Virus record (IMG/VR): IMGVR_UViG_3300020200_000015
Location: 18,961-82,960 of that record
DNA length: 64,000 nucleotides
From: a virus
Direction: 5' to 3' (one strand)
Shown here: one piece after another, positions 3,399 to 24,719 of the stretch
Layout: every line of letters starts with the position of its first letter
Position numbering within the stretch: the first letter of the stretch is position 1
Position numbers and translations under genes: made by a program
The notes under the pieces: model-generated
Databases searched by the model: none
Seen by the model: the letters and a program-made list of their open reading frames with translations, nothing else
Told to the model about the DNA's origin: nothing

Positions 3399-4019
3399 CT
3401 AAGAGTCTAACGCTTGGTGACTTTGGCCGTCGCCTTGGCCCCGCATCGCTTGATGCAGAATAGCCTTGGCGGCTTGTGTCTTACCATGAGGACTCATCCG
3501 ATCCTGCAATGGCACTCCTGCTGCAAAGAACAATTCGCTCCGCATGTTACCGCAGAGCGTTTGAAGCATGTTGGCTTGCTTCTCTAGTACCTTTACGAAT
3601 CCCTTAAGCGTATCAACACGGCTTTTTTGAGTCTCAATTCCGAAAAGACGGGTTTGCTTCTCTTCGCCGTGCAGCTGAGCCAGCCGTGCCTCAACCGTAG
3701 CTTGTGCTGGCGCTCTACCGGCACCGGCAGCTTCTTCGCGCAGCACTCTGAAAACCTTGTTGAAGTTCTCATTGTGCCACTGCTCATAGTCGTGAGTCAT
3801 CACGTTGAGCTTATTCGTCTCGATCTCTTGAATCGTGATCGCCCAAGCGAAGTGCTGGGAAAATTGCGTCAGTGATACATTGATCATCTCTGGATCAAGC
3901 TCACCTTGATCATTTGTGATCTGAAGGATCTTGATGATCTCGTTGTACTTGTTACGTGCCCATTGCTCAAAGCTGAGGTTTGGGTCATCATCCTTTGCAA
4001 CTAGCTTAATATGGTTCAT
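3399..4019 (-). CDS. Unknown helical protein; possible recombination mediator (UvsY-like)
   Basis: 206 aa, mostly helical and charged. It has an N-terminal helix pair (residues 10-70), a central EIETNKL-type helix and a C-terminal helix with KQANMLQTLCGNMRSEL. The layout, with a short helix near the C-terminus after a long charged region, recalls T4 UvsY (which loads UvsX on gp32-coated DNA), and the genes on the recombination side are SSB and RecA. It overlaps the polymerase gene by 4 bases (ATGA). I see no catalytic motif. The UvsY idea is inference from context and general shape. Confidence 0.45.
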   Translation of the reverse strand: MNHIKLVAKDDDPNLSFEQWARNKYNEIIKILQITNDQGELDPEMINVSLTQFSQHFAWAITIQEIETNKLNVMTHDYEQWHNENFNKVFRVLREEAAGAGRAPAQATVEARLAQLHGEEKQTRLFGIETQKSRVDTLKGFVKVLEKQANMLQTLCGNMRSELFFAAGVPLQDRMSPHGKTQAAKAILHQAMRGQGDGQSHQALDS

Positions 4020-6178
4020 CTGTTTTCCCTCAGAACAACAACATCTGTCATGGCATAGCTACCCTTTTCAGTCCTGCGACCGAAGGCTTGGATAACGCTA
4101 CCGACCTTGACGCGATGCTTAGACTTAGGCCAATCGCTCGGCCAAACAATCACATCCATCTCACCATCAGCAGTTAGCAGCGAGACGAATGCCATCATAC
4201 CGCTCTTAGCCTGGTGCTCCTTGACCCTAGATACCATGCCGCCAACCATGGCACATGTAGGTTGTTTCGCCGACTCTGGCGTAATGCATTTCGCAAGCTG
4301 CTCTTTGAAATGAGCAAGCGGATTATGCACCAGGTAGAAACCAAGCACATCTTTCTCTTTAGTGGCAAGCTCTCCGAGAGTTACCTCATCGTGCACGCTC
4401 GACTTGCACAGGTGCTTGGCAATGCTAGCTCTATCGCCGAAGCAATCGAGCGCGCCGCCAAACACGAGGCCGCTGATCTGGTTGGCGTTTAGCTTCACTC
4501 GACCAATGAATTCGTACTCATCAGAATACGGACGACGCTCAATAATCTGCTTGGACTTGCTGCCAACATGCTTGATGCACTCAAGCCCCATACGGATAGC
4601 GCCATCTTCGATCGAATAGCTCTCGGCGCTCTTGTTGACATCTGGCTGAAGAATCTTAATGCCAAGCCGATCACACTCTTTGATGTAGATCTCTTTGCTC
4701 TTGGTTTGCAATGCGCTGCACATGAATTGCAGCGGGTAATGCTGCTTCATGAACATGTCAGCGTATGCAATGTAGCCATAGCATACAGCGTGACTCTTGT
4801 TGAAGATGTACTTCTGGCAGGCAAGGATCTTATCCCACAGAGCCTCGACTGCCATCTCCTCAAAGCCCTTGGCAATGCAGCCAGCCTTGAAGTCATCGTA
4901 CACTTCTGACAGACCCTTATTGCTGCTGTTCGCAGTCTTGGCGATGATCTTTCTCACCTTGTCAGACTTGGCCATGCTAAAGCCTGCAATGTCAACGCAA
5001 ATTCGCATGACCTGCTCTTGGTAGAGAATGACGCCGTGCGTGTCCGATAGGATAGGCTCAAGCTCCGGCACAATGTAGCGCGCACTACCCTCATTGCGGG
5101 CAGTGATAAACTGGCTCACATCAAGTCCAGGGCGAATTAGAGCGTTGACAGCAGCAACATCACGAAATTGAATATCACTCAGACTCTGCAGAATGCTAAC
5201 CGACTTAAGCTCTTCAAACTGAAAGACTGCAACGGTTTCGCCTCGTTCGAATCCCTTGAGCGTATCCTTGTCGTCAAGTGGCAAGTTGTAGAAATCAATC
5301 TCGCTGCCAACCATCTTGATTGCGCGGCTGATGATTGAAAGATTATCGACAGTCAAGATGTCAAGCTTGACATAGCCAAGGCTATCAAGCTCTTCACCAT
5401 CCCATCCGGTAGCTAGCTGTCCGGTTACGGCAGCTTCGCCGGGTGGTCGCTGCATAGGTATCTCAGCGCCCATAGGGCCACGAGACAAAATCACAGCGCT
5501 TGGGTGGGTCGTTAGCTGGCGAACAAAACCTTGCAGAGACCTGGCGTAGAGGAAGAGTTCTGGGTACTTGTCCTCGTAATCCTTCAACGATGGCGACTCT
5601 TCAAACGCCTCATCGAATGTCTTAGCGTCTCCGATCAGCTTGGTGATTACCTTCACCTCGTTGAACTCGAGCTGATACACCTGCGACAGCTCATCAATCG
5701 CACTCCTCGGCTTGTAGATCGATGGCACGCCAACCTTGGCAATGCGATTGAGACCGTACTTGCCACGCAAGTAATCAATCACCGCATCACGGTCGCTAAA
5801 GTCAGTGTCAATATCTGGCAAGCTGATGCGCTCTGGATTCAAGAAGCGCTCGAAGATCAACCCAAACTTCAACGGATCGATCGTCGTAATGCCTGACAAG
5901 AAGACAACTAGGCTACCGGCAGCCGAGCCTCTACCTGGGCCAACTACGATCGCATTCAGCTTCGCCCAACGAATGTAGTCGGCGATGATCAGAATTACGC
6001 TCGAGTACCCACTGTTATTAAATACCTTGATTTCGTGCTCAAGACGCCGATAGTATTCAATCGGCGGAGCGAAGTACTTGCCCGACTTGATATAGCTCTG
6101 CAGATTCTCTCTGCAGAGATTGTAGAGACGCTGATTATCAGTTACGGCAACGGTGCCTGCTTCGTTGTCCCTAGACAT
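4016..6178 (-). CDS. dnaE: DNA polymerase III alpha, polymerase half (split DnaE, lacks PHP domain)
   Basis: 720 aa corresponding to the palm, thumb, fingers and OB parts of bacterial DnaE. GPGRGSAAGS is at 80-89, the catalytic pair lies in PDIDTDF (Asp124, Asp126), the third Asp is in KLDIL (Asp273), and HPSAV and RPG motifs follow. A helix-hairpin-helix region is near residue 540 and an OB domain near 630-690; a tau-binding C-terminal domain seems absent. The N-terminal PHP domain is missing here and is encoded separately at 9155-10024. The protein begins just before the segment equivalent to E. coli Y-FLIV-MEF, i.e. at a natural domain edge. No intein sequence is seen at this N-terminus. 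The start overlaps the preceding gene by 37 bases. Confidence 0.93.
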   Translation of the reverse strand: MSRDNEAGTVAVTDNQRLYNLCRENLQSYIKSGKYFAPPIEYYRRLEHEIKVFNNSGYSSVILIIADYIRWAKLNAIVVGPGRGSAAGSLVVFLSGITTIDPLKFGLIFERFLNPERISLPDIDTDFSDRDAVIDYLRGKYGLNRIAKVGVPSIYKPRSAIDELSQVYQLEFNEVKVITKLIGDAKTFDEAFEESPSLKDYEDKYPELFLYARSLQGFVRQLTTHPSAVILSRGPMGAEIPMQRPPGEAAVTGQLATGWDGEELDSLGYVKLDILTVDNLSIISRAIKMVGSEIDFYNLPLDDKDTLKGFERGETVAVFQFEELKSVSILQSLSDIQFRDVAAVNALIRPGLDVSQFITARNEGSARYIVPELEPILSDTHGVILYQEQVMRICVDIAGFSMAKSDKVRKIIAKTANSSNKGLSEVYDDFKAGCIAKGFEEMAVEALWDKILACQKYIFNKSHAVCYGYIAYADMFMKQHYPLQFMCSALQTKSKEIYIKECDRLGIKILQPDVNKSAESYSIEDGAIRMGLECIKHVGSKSKQIIERRPYSDEYEFIGRVKLNANQISGLVFGGALDCFGDRASIAKHLCKSSVHDEVTLGELATKEKDVLGFYLVHNPLAHFKEQLAKCITPESAKQPTCAMVGGMVSRVKEHQAKSGMMAFVSLLTADGEMDVIVWPSDWPKSKHRVKVGSVIQAFGRRTEKGSYAMTDVVVLRENR

Positions 6179-6726
6179 GCAGAGTACTTACCCGATTCGC
6201 CGTCGTAGATGAACAAACCTGCGGCAACACATTGCGTGAGCACCTCATAGATTACAAGCAGATCATTCGGCTTGAGGGATGAAATGGTATTGAGTTCTTG
6301 GACGAGTCCAGCGATAGTCATGTCATCTTTGCTAGCAACTGCATCATAGATGACATAGCTCATCGAGCCACTTCTGTACGGGTTGCCTGTGCGCTTGAAC
6401 TCGTGTGCCCAACGCCAAGGCAGCGAGCTTTTGATGTAGTCGGGAAGCTCGACATCATCAATCTCTTTCTTCTCGATCGCTACGTTCTTAGGAATCGACC
6501 TAACGGCGTCAAAATGCTCTCGCTCTTTCGCAGATACGAAAGAGGAGATGTCAAGCTTACCGACAGGCTCTGGCTCAGGCTGCTTGACATCACGCTCAAA
6601 GTCAACCGAGTAAACGATGTGGCACTTCTTGCAGACAGCCTCATCTTTGCCTTGGTAGAAAACGCTAGCAGTCGAATCGCAAGCTGAGCAGTCGCCTACA
6701 ACGTCACCAATCTTAAGGTGTTCCAT
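6142..6726 (-). CDS. Unknown zinc-ribbon protein in the replication operon
   Basis: 194 aa. The N-terminus holds a zinc ribbon (CSACDS at about 14-19 and CKKCH at about 32-36). A charged linker follows, and the C-terminal 80 residues look like a winged-helix fold (IAGLVQELN, NDLLVIYEVLTQ, GLFIYDG). It lies between the clamp operon and the polymerase gene with overlaps at both ends, so a role in replication or as an accessory DNA binder is likely. I do not recognise a named family. Confidence 0.7.
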   Translation of the reverse strand: MEHLKIGDVVGDCSACDSTASVFYQGKDEAVCKKCHIVYSVDFERDVKQPEPEPVGKLDISSFVSAKEREHFDAVRSIPKNVAIEKKEIDDVELPDYIKSSLPWRWAHEFKRTGNPYRSGSMSYVIYDAVASKDDMTIAGLVQELNTISSLKPNDLLVIYEVLTQCVAAGLFIYDGESGKYSACLGTTKQAPLP

Positions 6727-6976
6727 CGTTCAGATAGTCGATAAGCGGGCTGATCTTCCCTTCTTCATTCTTGGCAGCAGTCTTCTTGCTACGCTCAAGA
6801 GCTACCAAGTCAATGCTTCCAAACGACACGCCGCCTTTTGAGCTGGCAGCTACCGCAAGGTTTGACTTGCCCTCAGCAATGCTGAGGAGCTTGTCGCCAA
6901 CATTCGTAGTCTGCTTACGTGAGACGACCTTGATTGGGTCGCGCACGTTTTTGTCGTCTTCGAATAGCCCGGTCAC
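6713..6976 (-). CDS. Small unknown protein between clamp and polymerase genes
   Basis: 87 aa. The open frame extends into the clamp gene, but the GTG at 6974-6976 forms a 4-base GTGA overlap with the clamp stop, the typical coupling in this operon, so I use it as start. The protein is hydrophilic with Lys/Asp-rich ends and no motif I recognise. Cotranscription with the clamp and polymerase suggests a small replisome accessory protein; this is inference only. Confidence 0.55.
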   Translation of the reverse strand: MTGLFEDDKNVRDPIKVVSRKQTTNVGDKLLSIAEGKSNLAVAASSKGGVSFGSIDLVALERSKKTAAKNEEGKISPLIDYLNDGTP

Positions 6977-8094
6977 TGCTGGATGCAGGTGATCAAGTAG
7001 GTAAAGCCTTCCTCTTCGATCCAAAGCTTGCCGTCGCTTTGCACATTGCATACGACAGAATCGGGGCTTTGAGTAACAATCGCGCCGTCAAGGAAGTTGT
7101 TTACCTGATACGAATACTTGGCGATAACGCCGTCGCCCATGTCTTCGAGATCACCTGGCATCTTGAAGGAGCTAGCAGTGATGGTCTCACTGCCCTCAGC
7201 ACGATTGCTGATCGACAAGTGCAGCTCAACCTTGTCGTCCTTCTTAGTAATCTCGATGTTGAGCGACTTGTAGACTTGATCGGTCAAGATCATCAATCGA
7301 TTGATGACGCCGATGAATTCTTGCTTAGGAATCGTGATGAGAACTCCCTGCTGCTTGGTTGACAAGAAGTTCTTGTATGGGACAAACTTGGCATCAATCA
7401 GTCGCACACTAGCGATGAGGTTGATATCCTCACAAATGATGACAACCTGCTTGGCGTTCGTACTGAGGCCAAGAGTTACGTCGCCATGACAATACTCAAG
7501 AATGCCGCCGAACAACGGCATCAGCAAGATAGAGTCGCCCGTGTAGGCAATCGGCGTATTGGCAACACTCAGACGCCGATTGTCAGTAGCGGCAAAGTTG
7601 CCATCGAAGTTCACACCCTGGTAGCTGATCTTCGTCACATCCTTGCTGACGGCAACAACAGCCTTTGCCCAGGGATGTTGAAGTGCAGAGGCGTCACAGC
7701 GACCAATCACATTATGCGCATAATCGTTGACCGGGAACTCCGAGGGGTCAGCGTAGCGCGGAAGCTCGTACTTGCCGTTTGTGACGACGACAATCGGGCC
7801 GTTGATCTTATCTTGGCGAATGTCAACGTCTGCTGTTGTGCTAGCCTTCAAGATAGCAGACAGCAGACGGTACTCAACGAGGAAGTGCTCTGGGAAATCG
7901 TCAACGTTAGCGAGTGCAAGGTCGCCATAATCGACAGTCAAGAAAGCGTTGAAGTCAGTTGTACTAACAAGCAAACGCCTCGTCTCACGATTCAGACGAA
8001 ACTGCACATAATCGGCAACCTTCATGATTTTGTTGCCAACCGCAGTCCCCAAGATATTGAGAATGCCAACCAGACGATCTCTATTCAGAATCAC
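6973..8094 (-). CDS. dnaN: DNA polymerase III beta sliding clamp
   Basis: 373 aa, near the usual 366 aa of DnaN. The segment GKYELPR-(5)-FP matches the conserved beta-clamp sequence at the end of domain I, and three successive DnaN-like beta/alpha domains can be followed. The C-terminus ends in YLITCIQQ, resembling the conserved clamp C-terminal strand (PVR). It would form a dimeric ring tethering the split polymerase to DNA. I saw no clamp-loader genes (gp44/gp62 or tau/delta) in the window, so loading may depend on the host or on genes elsewhere. Confidence 0.88.
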   Translation of the reverse strand: MILNRDRLVGILNILGTAVGNKIMKVADYVQFRLNRETRRLLVSTTDFNAFLTVDYGDLALANVDDFPEHFLVEYRLLSAILKASTTADVDIRQDKINGPIVVVTNGKYELPRYADPSEFPVNDYAHNVIGRCDASALQHPWAKAVVAVSKDVTKISYQGVNFDGNFAATDNRRLSVANTPIAYTGDSILLMPLFGGILEYCHGDVTLGLSTNAKQVVIICEDINLIASVRLIDAKFVPYKNFLSTKQQGVLITIPKQEFIGVINRLMILTDQVYKSLNIEITKKDDKVELHLSISNRAEGSETITASSFKMPGDLEDMGDGVIAKYSYQVNNFLDGAIVTQSPDSVVCNVQSDGKLWIEEEGFTYLITCIQQ

Positions 8095-8375
8095 GACGCA
8101 GGTTCCTTCTTATCGGTTTGTGAATCAGATGACGCCTTCCTAGCCGCATTGGGATCGTAACCAATTTCCTTCAGCACCATCTCAGACCCAATGAGCAGAA
8201 TAGTCTCATTTGCGTCCTTCATAGCGGCGGCACCGAACACCTTTGCCCAAGGAATTGTCACAGACTTGTGACGCCTCTTCACCTTGAAGGTGATACCACC
8301 CGGAGTCACTGTCACGGTGACGCCCGGATAGCCAGTCAACTCTCTCACAAGCGGCTTGCTCAGGACCGTACCCAT
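8091..8375 (-). CDS. Small unknown protein upstream of the clamp gene
   Basis: 94 aa, beta-rich (PGVTVTVTPGGITFKVKRRH) with a Lys/Ser/Asp C-terminal tail. The stop overlaps the clamp start by 4 bases. The ATG at 8375 lies inside the 3-prime part of the preceding frame, giving a 170-base overlap, the longest in the operon. No known motif. Confidence 0.6.
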   Translation of the reverse strand: MGTVLSKPLVRELTGYPGVTVTVTPGGITFKVKRRHKSVTIPWAKVFGAAAMKDANETILLIGSEMVLKEIGYDPNAARKASSDSQTDKKEPAS

Positions 8376-8802
8376 ACTTTTCCTTCAGTAAATCGATGTA
8401 GCTTGCAGGAATCTTCTCACCGCCTGGAAGCAAACGCTGCTTCCACTGCTGTATGAGCCATGCCAAATCTTCGGCAATCTCATCATCAGTTGGCGGTAGC
8501 CATTCAGCAAGAGGTCTACTCTTGACCTGAACTAGCCTATCAGCCAGCTTACCGGGTTTGTATCCTCGTCTAAGTAATTCCGAGGTGGCTTTTGCATGGG
8601 ACCACTTGAGAAACGACGGATGATACATGTAGACTGGAACGAGCGGGTCATCCCAGTCTGGATTCGGGATGTCATTATGTACGTCGTGAATGATGCCAAG
8701 CAGCCGAATAGTCATCAACCTGAACGAGAGCAGTTGCCTCGTTGCCAGATAGACATACGGCACGCGCACGAAGCGCACTGCTGGCCAATCACCCCAAGCC
8801 AT
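8206..8802 (-). CDS. Possible pyrimidine-dimer DNA glycosylase-like (T4 DenV-type) protein
   Basis: 198 aa open frame. Residues about 10-95 resemble the DenV fold by order of features: an RVPYVYL strand start, a QLLSFRL helix, then Y-(6)-FLKWSHAKATSELLRRGY, which matches the W/K..L..E...RGY helix of the family. The Glu that should be catalytic (Glu23 in T4) is not at the aligned place (Thr instead), so it may be inactive or a different member. The last 55 residues overlap the next gene in another frame and look unstructured, so the true protein may end in overlap or involve a frameshift. The first Met is at the end of the previous gene (1-base overlap); an internal Met30 is an alternative start. 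Confidence 0.45.
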   Translation of the reverse strand: MAWGDWPAVRFVRVPYVYLATRQLLSFRLMTIRLLGIIHDVHNDIPNPDWDDPLVPVYMYHPSFLKWSHAKATSELLRRGYKPGKLADRLVQVKSRPLAEWLPPTDDEIAEDLAWLIQQWKQRLLPGGEKIPASYIDLLKEKYGYGPEQAACERVDWLSGRHRDSDSGWYHLQGEEASQVCDNSLGKGVRCRRYEGRK

Positions 8803-9155
8803 TACGTAACTTTCCAGATGCCGTCGGGACGCATCCTACATATTGCAAGTACTTGATATAGGGCAGTCTTCACGTTGCCATCGGTTGAATCCCAATAGCT
8901 GATGCCCATCTCATTCCCAAGCTGGGCGATAGCTTTCTCTAGAATCGGGATAGCGTTGGCGGCAAGGGAACCATCAAGCGCTTTGATACCACCATTGATG
9001 ACTTTGTACAAACGATCAGCGTAGTTGTACGTCATTGCGAGGCCGAGCTGCGTCGTGCCGCCGACAGCATAAATTGATCCTCGCATGAAGTGCTTTTCTT
9101 CAGAATGCAAGACTCTACCAGTCACAGGGTGACACAGGTCGAGGTCGTAGCTCAT
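8802..9155 (-). CDS. Conserved phage-type hypothetical protein
   Basis: 117 aa beginning MSYDLDL and containing HFMRGSIYAVGGT, MTYNYADRLYKV, IPILEKAI and WDSTDGN-KTAL motifs. This motif order belongs to a small family I recognise from phage and bacterial genomes that has no assigned function. Single-base overlaps on both sides tie it to the polymerase PHP gene. The fold appears alpha/beta, without membrane segments. Confidence 0.7.
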   Translation of the reverse strand: MSYDLDLCHPVTGRVLHSEEKHFMRGSIYAVGGTTQLGLAMTYNYADRLYKVINGGIKALDGSLAANAIPILEKAIAQLGNEMGISYWDSTDGNVKTALYQVLAICRMRPDGIWKVT

Positions 9156-10024
9156 TATTCTTTGAATGATGGCACCTTAGTGCCTTGACGAAGATCAAAA
9201 GATTCAACAACATTGGCAACTTCGCCAGTTCGCCAGACAGCCTCTTGCAGTTCGACGCTGTTGACGAAATAGCCGTCACCATGAAGAAGGTCAAACGCAG
9301 CGCACACCTCATCTTCAGACATGATGTGGCGGTCGCCACGAAACGGGAACTCCCAATACGGGTTGCGTGAATTCTTAGCCGCTAGGTAGCGCTCGAAGAA
9401 GTCACGATCCGATACGGTAGCATAATGTGGATCAACTGTGGCTACCAACTTGATGGCATCGTTAGTCTTTGCCTCAGTTAGCAACGCAGCGTTGTACACG
9501 CGCTGCGACTCAGTTTGGCTTGGTTGAACCTCCCAATAGAGGTTATCACCGTACAACTCGCTCAGTTCAGCGTAGCAAGTAGCTATGCCGTTCATGCCAG
9601 CGGCAAAGAATCTTGCCGCAGCCCATCCCTTGATGTCCGACGTTAGGCAGATGATGCCCTCATTGAACTTGGCAAGTGCAGCCATATCCACGCGAGGATG
9701 GTAATAGAAGTACATTGAGCCAATAGTGGCAAGCTTAGTCAGGTTACTAAGCCCGACACTATTCTTCGCCAAAAGCACCAGCGTACTAGACTGCTGCTGC
9801 TTCAGCGATTTGTCCTGCGCTACATTGACTTCCATGCCGAAGATCGGCTTGACGCCGGTCTTCTTGCACGCATTATAGAGTTGAATAACGCCGCTCAACG
9901 TGCCGTTATCGGTCACGCAAGCGGCGCTACCGCCCAACTCCAGGACGCGCTCAACCAGCCGAGATGGCTTTATGAGAGATCTTCCTACCGACCTGTCAGT
10001 GTGACAATGTAGGTGGACAAACAT
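9155..10024 (-). CDS. DNA polymerase III alpha, PHP-domain half (split DnaE N-terminus)
   Basis: 289 aa matching only the N-terminal PHP domain of DnaE. The metal motif HLHCHTD is at residues 4-10 (His4, His6), then VTDNGTLSG (Asp39), FGMEV (Glu65), LLAKNSVGLSNLTKL and VDPHY near 217. It ends with LRQGTKVPSF, the segment that in complete DnaE precedes the palm, so the break lies exactly between PHP and polymerase domains. The His of the usual TDH motif is Asn40, so phosphoesterase/proofreading activity is uncertain. The rest of the enzyme is at 4016-6178, downstream in the same operon and in collinear order. No intein halves are visible. Confidence 0.88.
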   Translation of the reverse strand: MFVHLHCHTDRSVGRSLIKPSRLVERVLELGGSAACVTDNGTLSGVIQLYNACKKTGVKPIFGMEVNVAQDKSLKQQQSSTLVLLAKNSVGLSNLTKLATIGSMYFYYHPRVDMAALAKFNEGIICLTSDIKGWAAARFFAAGMNGIATCYAELSELYGDNLYWEVQPSQTESQRVYNAALLTEAKTNDAIKLVATVDPHYATVSDRDFFERYLAAKNSRNPYWEFPFRGDRHIMSEDEVCAAFDLLHGDGYFVNSVELQEAVWRTGEVANVVESFDLRQGTKVPSFKE

Positions 10025-10027
10025 CTC

Positions 10028-10300
10028 TCACTGGATTGATTCGTCACCGTCAAACAGCTTCTCGCTGCCATTAGTCTCGGCGTTATCCGTGACTGGGACA
10101 AGAGTGAGGCTATTGTCATCGTTGATGATCATATCAAAAAGACCACCGACGCGGAAGCCAAGCTCATGCAGGTATTGCGCGCTGAACCTGATGGCTGGAA
10201 TCTTCTGTCCGTTAGCGGTTGACACGTTGTACGCCATCTTGAGACGGCGCTTACGCGGGACTTCAACGGCAACCTTGATGTAGAGCTTATCGTTTTGCAT
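10028..10300 (-). CDS. SymE/AbrB-like swapped-hairpin domain protein
   Basis: 90 aa. Residues 20-72 follow the SymE pattern: basic strand (RKRRLKMAY), then IPAIRFSAQYLHELGFRVGG, which parallels the p.i.L.G.WL..aGF..G core, then two strands (FDMIINDD, LTLVPV). SymE is an SOS-controlled toxin related to the AbrB fold; others in the fold are DNA-binding transition regulators. Here it is three bases upstream of the PHP gene, so a replication-linked regulator or host-directed nucleic-acid binder is possible. The acidic tail is extra. Confidence 0.5.
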   Translation of the reverse strand: MQNDKLYIKVAVEVPRKRRLKMAYNVSTANGQKIPAIRFSAQYLHELGFRVGGLFDMIINDDNSLTLVPVTDNAETNGSEKLFDGDESIQ

Positions 10301-10314
10301 GGCTTTGGAATTGG

Positions 10315-10533
10315 TTAGACCTTAACCACTATACGGCTAGTAACTAGCTTTGTAAAGTGCTCCAAGGTAGATATGCAAGTTATTTTTGCCAGCTTCATGA
10401 ATACCGACAAGCGATCGATATTCGCTAGCGGGAACCAGTACTGCGCTTGAGTTGGGCAGCTCTCTCTAGCCTCACAGATTGCCATGAGTTCTTTGCTATG
10501 CTCAAGCTCAAACAGCACAACGTTGTCAGGCAT
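10315..10533 (-). CDS. Small unknown protein
   Basis: 72 aa with two Cys near the middle and hydrophobic C-terminal half (FMKLAKITCISTLEHFTKLV). It overlaps the end of the sigma-like gene by 8 bases. No motif recognised; coupling to the sigma gene is the only hint of role. Confidence 0.5.
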   Translation of the reverse strand: MPDNVVLFELEHSKELMAICEARESCPTQAQYWFPLANIDRLSVFMKLAKITCISTLEHFTKLVTSRIVVKV

Positions 10534-11143
10534 TTTTGATTCTAACTTTCAAAATTGATTCTACCGCCGGCTGGATCCTGCTATACAGTACGTGGCGCAC
10601 GCGACTTGTCAAGATGCCGAGCCTACCAGCAACAGCCTCTGGTGGATTACCTTGACGAAGCAGATCGAAAATCTTGCGGTCATCAGGCTTCAGCAAGTTA
10701 GAGACGGCATCACAGATATCGTTACCGTGAACTACGTCGTTGACATCTGGCTGAATCAATTCAGGCTCGGTGATGTAGTCGAACGACGACATCTCATCTG
10801 AATCTGTCTCGCCCAAGATTGGGATGATGGCACCCTTCGGCTTACGCTTCGCAACATTGGCAGCGTACTTCTCATCAATCATTGCGTTGCGAACGTAGGT
10901 GATGAAGAGCTTCAAGAACCTTCTCTCATTGTGCTCTTCAGAAAATCCGTCCTCGTAGACGAACTTGATGCAAGCCTCATGAAGCTTGACTAGCGCGAGG
11001 TTGTACAGACTGTCAACATCCTCAACTCGCTTCAACATTGCGTCACGCGAATAGGGCATGACAATACTCCGAATCATTTGCGCAAGCTTCTTCTCGATTT
11101 CGTTGAAGCCGACAGGTTTCTTGTTGATGATGATTGCTAGCAT
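10526..11143 (-). CDS. Sigma-70-like RNA polymerase sigma factor
   Basis: 205 aa from the ATG at 11143, chosen because GGGAGG lies four bases before it; the frame is open further upstream without a ribosome site. The N-terminal half has region-2-like helices (DVDSLYNLALVKLHEACI, FLKLFITYVRNAMIDEKY), and the C-terminal 60 residues resemble region 4 (LLKPDDRKIFDLLRQG, PPEAVAGRLGILTSRVRHVLYSRI). The overall size fits a phage-encoded ECF-like sigma factor, presumably for middle or late promoters. Which promoters it reads cannot be told from sequence alone. Confidence 0.7.
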   Translation of the reverse strand: MLAIIINKKPVGFNEIEKKLAQMIRSIVMPYSRDAMLKRVEDVDSLYNLALVKLHEACIKFVYEDGFSEEHNERRFLKLFITYVRNAMIDEKYAANVAKRKPKGAIIPILGETDSDEMSSFDYITEPELIQPDVNDVVHGNDICDAVSNLLKPDDRKIFDLLRQGNPPEAVAGRLGILTSRVRHVLYSRIQPAVESILKVRIKNA

Positions 11144-11228
11144 TTGCCTCCCTAACGCTTGGCAACAGGCTAACCGCAACGCCATTGCAGGCAAGCGCAA
11201 AGCAAACTTTTTTTAGCCGCAAGCCAGT

Positions 11229-12290
11229 TCACTTTTTAACCTGCGTAACTTTGTGGCGTGTAACAGTTAACGGTCCAGCCAACTGATCAGACTCATAATG
11301 GCAGTACCGAGTCCCAAAATCAATTGCATGAAATAACTCTTCTGGCGTGCAGTCTCCAGGATCCTTGCCGATTGGGCACATGTAGATCCATGCAGCTTTT
11401 CCGACAGTTGGGATCATTCTATCGACCAGATCCCAACCACGCAAGCCATCAAGGTCTGGCATGATGCCGTGATTGTCAAAGTCTTTGAGTAGTCGCAACT
11501 GCTGATCACTAATCATGTTAGTGAAGCAAGCCATCGGATGAACACTACCCAACGTCAGCGACTCGATCTTAATAGCATCGAGAATCGACTCGACCATGAT
11601 GTACGAGCGCGCTTCAAGACAACTATCGTAGTTGAACAGAATCTCACCCTGCGGCGAGTTCTTGGGATAGCGCTTCGCGCCACCCTTCTTAGGCTGAGCG
11701 TAGAAGACGCTTCGCAACTGCCCGCGAAACTTGATAGGTATGACGATGGCATAGCCGATAGACTGGCTCATTGTGCAGCCAATCTCGAACTTGTCCATGT
11801 ACTCTGGCGTTATGTGACGCTCGGTAGTCAGCCATTCCCTAGCTGCAATCGACTGATTATCATGGCACTTGGTAATCAGCTTGTAGTCGTCAGGAAGATC
11901 AAAGTACTCAATAGGCTTGTCATCTTCAATCTGCGGCTTGGCTATCTTCAACTTAAGAACAAGCGCATCAGTGCCATCAACATTGGCGCTACCAAAACGC
12001 TCTTGCAGAACATCGATAGCTTGTGGAAAGCTGATGTTCATGCAGTGGCTAATGAGATGGACTAGGTTGCCTTTGAAGTTGCAAGCCCAGCAATTGAAAA
12101 GCCCTTTGAACTTTCCAGACTCAGCAATGCTGATTCTCTTCTTATGCCTGTCCTCGGCATGATTATCAGTTGGACAAGCAAAGTACAGCTCATGCCCATT
12201 CTTATTTGATCGCCTCTCAAAGTCGAGGCCAAGATTAGTCAGAACCAGCGCCACCTCTGAGCGCTGCATTAGCAAGCCAAAGTCAATCAT
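11229..12290 (-). CDS. DNA primase (DnaG/gp4-type, CHC2 zinc and Toprim)
   Basis: 353 aa. The N-terminal zinc site reads Cys39-x4-His44-x22-Cys67-x2-Cys70 with the FNCWACNFKGN primase signature. The Toprim domain has its Glu in MVESILDAI and the Asp pair in MPDLDG. It lacks a C-terminal helicase-interaction domain as large as that of bacterial DnaG (about 580 aa). It makes RNA primers for lagging-strand synthesis and abuts the DnaB gene with a 1-base overlap. Confidence 0.88.
   Translation of the reverse strand: MIDFGLLMQRSEVALVLTNLGLDFERRSNKNGHELYFACPTDNHAEDRHKKRISIAESGKFKGLFNCWACNFKGNLVHLISHCMNISFPQAIDVLQERFGSANVDGTDALVLKLKIAKPQIEDDKPIEYFDLPDDYKLITKCHDNQSIAAREWLTTERHITPEYMDKFEIGCTMSQSIGYAIVIPIKFRGQLRSVFYAQPKKGGAKRYPKNSPQGEILFNYDSCLEARSYIMVESILDAIKIESLTLGSVHPMACFTNMISDQQLRLLKDFDNHGIMPDLDGLRGWDLVDRMIPTVGKAAWIYMCPIGKDPGDCTPEELFHAIDFGTRYCHYESDQLAGPLTVTRHKVTQVKK

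Positions 12291-18191: not shown

Positions 18192-18195
<4 letters not shown>
17284..18195 (-). CDS. Putative virion protein of the tail tip/fibre module
   Basis: 303 aa, Ser/Thr/Asn/Val-rich and low in charged residues, as in fibre-type beta proteins. It has a segment [19 protein letters not shown] like the coiled connector segments in tail fibres. The start overlaps the stop of the 2175-aa hub/fibre gene by 4 bases. Probably the distal fibre or a tip-attached protein. No enzyme motif. Confidence 0.5.

Positions 18196-24718
<6,523 letters not shown>

Positions 24719-24719
<1 letters not shown>

Follow-up and report, generated by a model that had tools for sequence, protein, structure and literature searches.

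Can the PHP domain of a C-family (DnaE-type) replicase be supplied by a separate protein, and what would such a protein contribute to the polymerase? The question was raised by a 64,000-nucleotide stretch of viral DNA (hereafter the window), which comprised bases 18961-82960 of the IMG/VR virus record IMGVR_UViG_3300020200_000015, 82,960 bases in length. According to Barros et al., C-family polymerases invariably contain a PHP domain, also where that domain is unable to bind metal; from point mutants, they argue that the domain has a structural role (PMC3666897). With a probability of roughly 0.8, we consider that the replicase encoded in the window consists of two chains, of which the PHP chain is a non-covalent and most likely structural subunit that stabilises the polymerase.

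A sequence-only reading of this DNA had assigned the PHP domain alone to one gene and everything from the palm onward, with three catalytic Asp residues, to another (Table 1). Both assignments were borne out by the profile searches. PHP was the sole Pfam match of the first gene, and the second matched DNA_pol3_alpha, DNA_pol3_finger and HHH_6 above the cut-off, with an OB-fold family falling slightly under it (26.8 vs 27 bits). The three catalytic Asp residues of the polymerase chain (D122, D124, D273) were invariant across 55 aligned sequences; we take them to be the counterparts of the catalytic E. coli residues D401, D403 and D555 (D401 by alignment, the other two by motif). The locus had the features of a DnaE-type alpha subunit, namely the Asp triad in the palm, the fingers, HhH and OB regions after the palm, and a PHP domain of the DnaE kind, the last in a separate gene. 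Because PHP and polymerase were found in two ORFs, with 2,976 bases between them (6179-9154) and the PHP gene first on the coding strand, the locus represents a split form rather than an ordinary one-chain DnaE.

Table 1. Features of the split dnaE locus in the window; "no family" refers to Pfam and PHROG profile searches.
Feature	Position	Strand	Evidence
Polymerase half of DnaE	4016-6178	minus	720 aa: palm, thumb, fingers, HhH, OB; phrog_405 335-1054
Gene, no family	6142-6726	minus	directly before polymerase half, 37-base overlap with its start; L004 homologue, 31% identity
Small gene, no family	6713-7051	minus	adjoins clamp; conserved in L004, 33% identity
Sliding clamp (processivity factor)	6973-8094	minus	phrog_947 1.8e-20; syntenic L004 homologue, 38% identity
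Small gene, no family	8091-8375	minus	conserved in L004, 40% identity
Gene, no family	8206-8802	minus	conserved in L004, 31% identity
Small gene, no family	8802-9155	minus	directly after PHP; ATG overlaps PHP stop (TAATG); no tblastn match in L004
PHP half of DnaE, stand-alone gene	9155-10024	minus	289 aa; Pfam PHP 7e-35; phrog_405 43-330

The coverage of the phage DnaE family phrog_405 by the two halves (Table 1) indicated that they are collinear, as had been proposed, with no gap between them. On an HMM made from 91 dereplicated ORFs of fused phage DnaE, with ORFs of at least 1800 aa left out, the PHP half occupied positions 14-310 and the polymerase half 316-1100, which placed the break between P282 and S287 of E. 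coli alpha, in the PHP-palm linker. Since the break lies in this linker, both genes specify whole folding units. Both halves started and stopped at the DnaE alignment limits, with no more than about 15 extra residues, and neither ORF carried a remnant of the opposite half as judged by the HMM. The claim that intein halves are absent also agreed with our searches, in which no intein family was found in either half at E values up to 0.01.

The interval of about 3 kb was correctly read as holding the clamp, which we identified by phrog_947. The TAATG stop/start overlap and the 37-base overlap at the polymerase start are arranged as in a tight operon. The halves belonged to a minus-strand replication module that comprised an SbcD-like phosphoesterase, RecA, a gp32-like protein, the polymerase half, the clamp, the PHP half, a primase-like protein, a DnaB helicase, a DnaC/IstB-like ATPase and a helicase. 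A DnaQ-type exonuclease (PF00929) was not found in the 83-kb record. By eye, we recognised no internal clamp-binding motif between HhH and OB of the polymerase half. The sequence GLFED was seen by eye near the start of the small clamp-adjacent gene and its homologues (window 6713-7051, minus; L004:9287-9544; L010:9245-9550), and it might be a candidate clamp-binding peptide. Elsewhere in the window, the product of 18192-24719 (minus) was very long, carried collagen-like GPT repeats and is probably a tail protein.

Two other viral contigs, L004 and L010, formed a clade with the window and had dnaE split in the same way, again with this clamp between the halves. In L004, PHP lay at 6739-7608, the clamp at about 8253-9329 and the polymerase at 9989-12121. 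Nearly all window neighbours had a homologue there, in conserved order; the window gene 8802-9155 was unmatched. The layout of L010, with the gene order read by eye, was that of the window. Over aligned columns, polymerase identity to the window was 61% for L004 and 66% for the shorter stretch of L010, and PHP identity was 40%. The PHP ORF was intact, about 289 aa long and had the same ends in all three diverged genomes.

Both halves were then considered as predicted structures. Each was predicted by AlphaFold2 to fold confidently alone, with a mean pLDDT of 93.2 for the PHP half and 92.0 for the polymerase half. The PHP model matched residues 6-297/298 of T. aquaticus alpha (2hpi, 3e0d, 4iqj) with a VIA Z of 36, and the polymerase model matched residues 299-1125/1126 with a VIA Z of 40-42, where the ranges are the first and last aligned residues. 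As aligned with these models, the two segments of T. aquaticus alpha abut and nothing is missing. The PHP model scored a Z of 29-36 against DnaE/PolC PHP domains and at most 16.9 against non-polymerase PHP enzymes; on these values, we rejected the idea that the PHP half is a separate non-polymerase PHP enzyme.

The metal site of the detached domain was changed further than the replacement of TDH by TDN in the sequence-only reading. The active PHP metal motif is given as HHDHEH[C/H]DH (PMC12926913). Against this motif, the window read HHRNETDDH (5/9 ligands kept), L004 read CLTYLNGMH (1/9) and L010 read TQWSISGTL (0/9), and the full metal site of an active PHP proofreading nuclease was lacking in all three. 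The scaffold was conserved: 173 representative intact PHPs gave 28 positions outside the ligands with conservation of 80% or more, and of these 21 were kept in the window, 21 in L004 and 20 in L010. The contrast between ligands and scaffold gave Fisher p values of 0.4 (not significant) for the window, 0.0012 for L004 and 0.0002 for L010, which are related genomes and not three independent lineages. Nine of the 11 other split groups scored were intact; L013 had an alignment gap, and L261 differed at one place. The site was intact in 162, variant in 11 and gapped in 8 of the other phage groups, and intact in 69, variant in 8 and gapped in 1 of the bacterial groups. We also observed that the PHP domain of the junction-split DnaE at L261:3178-5307 contained an intein, matched by Hint and LAGLIDADG, and we noted a mid-PHP region unrecognised by the HMM in the one-ORF DnaEs of L006 (Pbunavirus PB1) and L170 (Wifcevirus).

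Within the window clade, the PHP halves shared 39-44% identity (39.4-43.5%) against 67-68% for the polymerase halves. Among fused pairs with a polymerase identity of 62-72%, PHP identity averaged 62.4%, with a minimum of 46.3%, when both PHPs were intact (655 pairs), and averaged 46.5%, with a minimum of 39.8%, when both were variant (12 pairs). Faster PHP divergence as a mark of the split itself was dropped, because the fused variant-PHP pairs were nearly as low as the window clade.

Because much or all of the metal site has been lost in the window clade, the PHP chain is most likely a structural subunit and not a proofreading nuclease. E. coli alpha likewise has an incomplete PHP metal site. 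According to PMC3666897, this PHP domain nevertheless contributes to the stability of Pol III and modulates how active it is, and mutations in the domain lower both. By analogy, the free PHP chain of the window would be a non-covalent structural subunit. Both genes would be expressed, and the PHP chain would associate with the polymerase chain by docking non-covalently at the site of the fused PHP domain. The docked chain would stabilise the polymerase chain and aid it in reaching full activity, a role that may be purely structural. As a counterpoint, a separate PHP could have acquired another role.

In E. coli, the PHP domain is the docking site of the epsilon subunit, and the detached PHP of the window might, tentatively, be a putative adaptor for host epsilon (DnaQ), either recruiting a proofreader in trans or tying up host epsilon. 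We hold this to be possible rather than probable. The decayed PHP site and the lack of a PF00929 exonuclease in the 83-kb record are consistent with it, as are the alpha-epsilon chimera structures 4gx8 and 4gx9 among the structure matches and the statement, in part of PMC3666897, that ligand loss in bacterial PHP domains accompanies a separate proofreading exonuclease. However, the record may be incomplete, and an adaptor would be compatible with the structural reading, not opposed to it. That the polymerase works without PHP, the detached half being a relic in decay, is quite improbable: the lost ligands and the faster divergence of PHP would fit decay, but the ORF kept intact between matching ends across the three diverged genomes, the kept scaffold (20-21/28) and the confident fold argue against it. 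An assembly or sequencing error that hides one continuous dnaE, which the sequence-only reading had named as what would overturn it, has a very remote likelihood; a single contig would have been insufficient to exclude it, but L004 and L010, although diverged, share both genes, their order and their ends with the window, the intervening 3 kb or so consists of genes that are mostly conserved, and neither ORF holds a remnant of the other, so we rejected this explanation unless all three genomes are wrong alike. Joining of the halves after translation, as by the split inteins of cyanobacterial DnaE, is scarcely conceivable and was rejected, since neither half matched an intein family, the ends are the DnaE limits and the split-intein-like breaks that do exist in other phage contigs (L079) sit elsewhere, between HMM positions 388 and 389.

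In all, 411 loci were classified (320 viral, 11 phage-record and 80 bacterial-genome) and were grouped by shared identical 200-mers into 280 groups (190 viral, 79 bacterial and 11 phage-record). The search of phage genomes for the same split that had been proposed recovered it: in 15/190 viral groups, the PHP and polymerase ORFs were separated at the PHP-palm linker. The other viral groups included 144 with one ORF, 13 with one ORF and extra pieces, 8 that were partial and 9 broken inside the palm, several merely through a contig end. The remaining group (L037/L263) had a junction-start polymerase without a PHP gene, with just 1.6 kb of upstream sequence. Because the viral loci were fetched using the split halves as queries, these counts come from a biased sample and are not prevalences. 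Bacterial DnaEs (E. coli, T. aquaticus and M. tuberculosis Pol III alpha) have the same domains, order and Asp triad as the window, but carry PHP and polymerase in one chain; 78 of the 79 bacterial groups had one ORF and one was cut by a contig end, so that the junction split occurred in 0/79, as in 0/11 phage-record groups. A first scan of bacterial genomes found no close relatives, and a second, with clade-2 queries, gave 80 loci, 79 of them with one ORF and the other truncated at a contig end. Matches to named phages were all below 60% identity for both window halves (807 records for PHP, 1333 for the polymerase). Pseudomonas was the commonest genus among the polymerase-half matches (301 records) and lay outside the top ten for PHP. 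The 782-position profile phrog_11165 starts near the junction and has no PHP, and it may contain further junction-split cases. Our literature search, with a 2011 survey of viral replicases outside it, turned up neither this split nor a PHP gene standing apart from its polymerase.

In split groups, the distance between the halves ranged from overlapping ORFs (L041, L178, L180, L181) up to about 3 kb. A second clade (L013, L031, L054, L061, L086, L178, L180, L181, L183, L261) resembled the window in its break point and in the PHP gene preceding the polymerase gene. It differed in its mostly intact PHP metal site (9/9) and longer polymerase C-terminus, and no clamp was identified in those inter-half ORFs that were inspected. 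In one member, a DnaQ-like exonuclease (L054:7547-8167; PF00929, 7e-10) lay between the PHP and polymerase genes. A tree of 53 polymerase domains, with 15 labelled split rows and with L037, which is probably split, entered unlabelled, recovered the window clade (100/100) and the second clade, in which L037 joined 11 split rows (100/100); L041 stood alone. The split rows fell in three places and were united in 0% of 200 bootstrap trees. A single split clade was not rejected by AU tests, in which p was 0.066 for the full set of 16 rows and 0.213 without L041. We regard as doubtful the combined proposal of an obligate, catalytically dead PHP subunit, more than one phage origin at the same linker, and docking of the host proofreading subunit on the window-clade PHP.

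DnaE in pieces is already known from named phages, and the break at the PHP-palm linker is what differs here. In Bacillus phage G, DnaE is spread over gp329, gp331 and gp339 with genes between, but the breaks lie at HMM positions 425/426 and 577/578 and not at the linker. In the phage G locus (L172, 234000-258000), the DnaE genes span about 10.8 kb, gp331 has no DnaE annotation and the intervening gp330 is annotated as a homing endonuclease. Phages phi19:2, Jayan, phiT1 and MrMiyagi have a two-gene DnaE like the window; in contrast, their breaks lie at HMM 422-426 or about 600, and the pieces touch or are less than 300 bases apart. Cyanobacterial DnaE is described, in part of PMC3919608, as two pieces split by an intein; those pieces are joined by the intein, whereas none was found in the window halves. 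Other break types were observed alongside. L079:7614-12193 (also L083 and L084), L135 and L144 broke at HMM 388/389 or nearby (E. coli G363/S364); by eye, these breaks had split-intein-like extra residues on both halves, and the L079 ORF between the halves resembled a GIY-YIG-type endonuclease. The DnaE of L144 was in four pieces. A recurrent break near HMM 600/606, which corresponds to about 574-585 in E. coli and often left the pieces about 0.7-1.4 kb apart, was seen in L200, L201, L202, L206, L210, L213, L230, L233, L236, L241-L243 and L245, and in L009 and L173.

For C-family polymerases, the PHP-palm linker may be a pointer to a tolerated cut point for engineered split enzymes. The unusual value of this locus would lie in the detached domain being, as judged from its residues, also catalytically degraded in the window clade. 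A PHP protein that is decayed yet retained would allow us to ask what purpose the domain serves once cutting is lost. Because the PHP is separated, its metal site degraded and its gene kept, its role could be tested by omitting and re-adding one protein.
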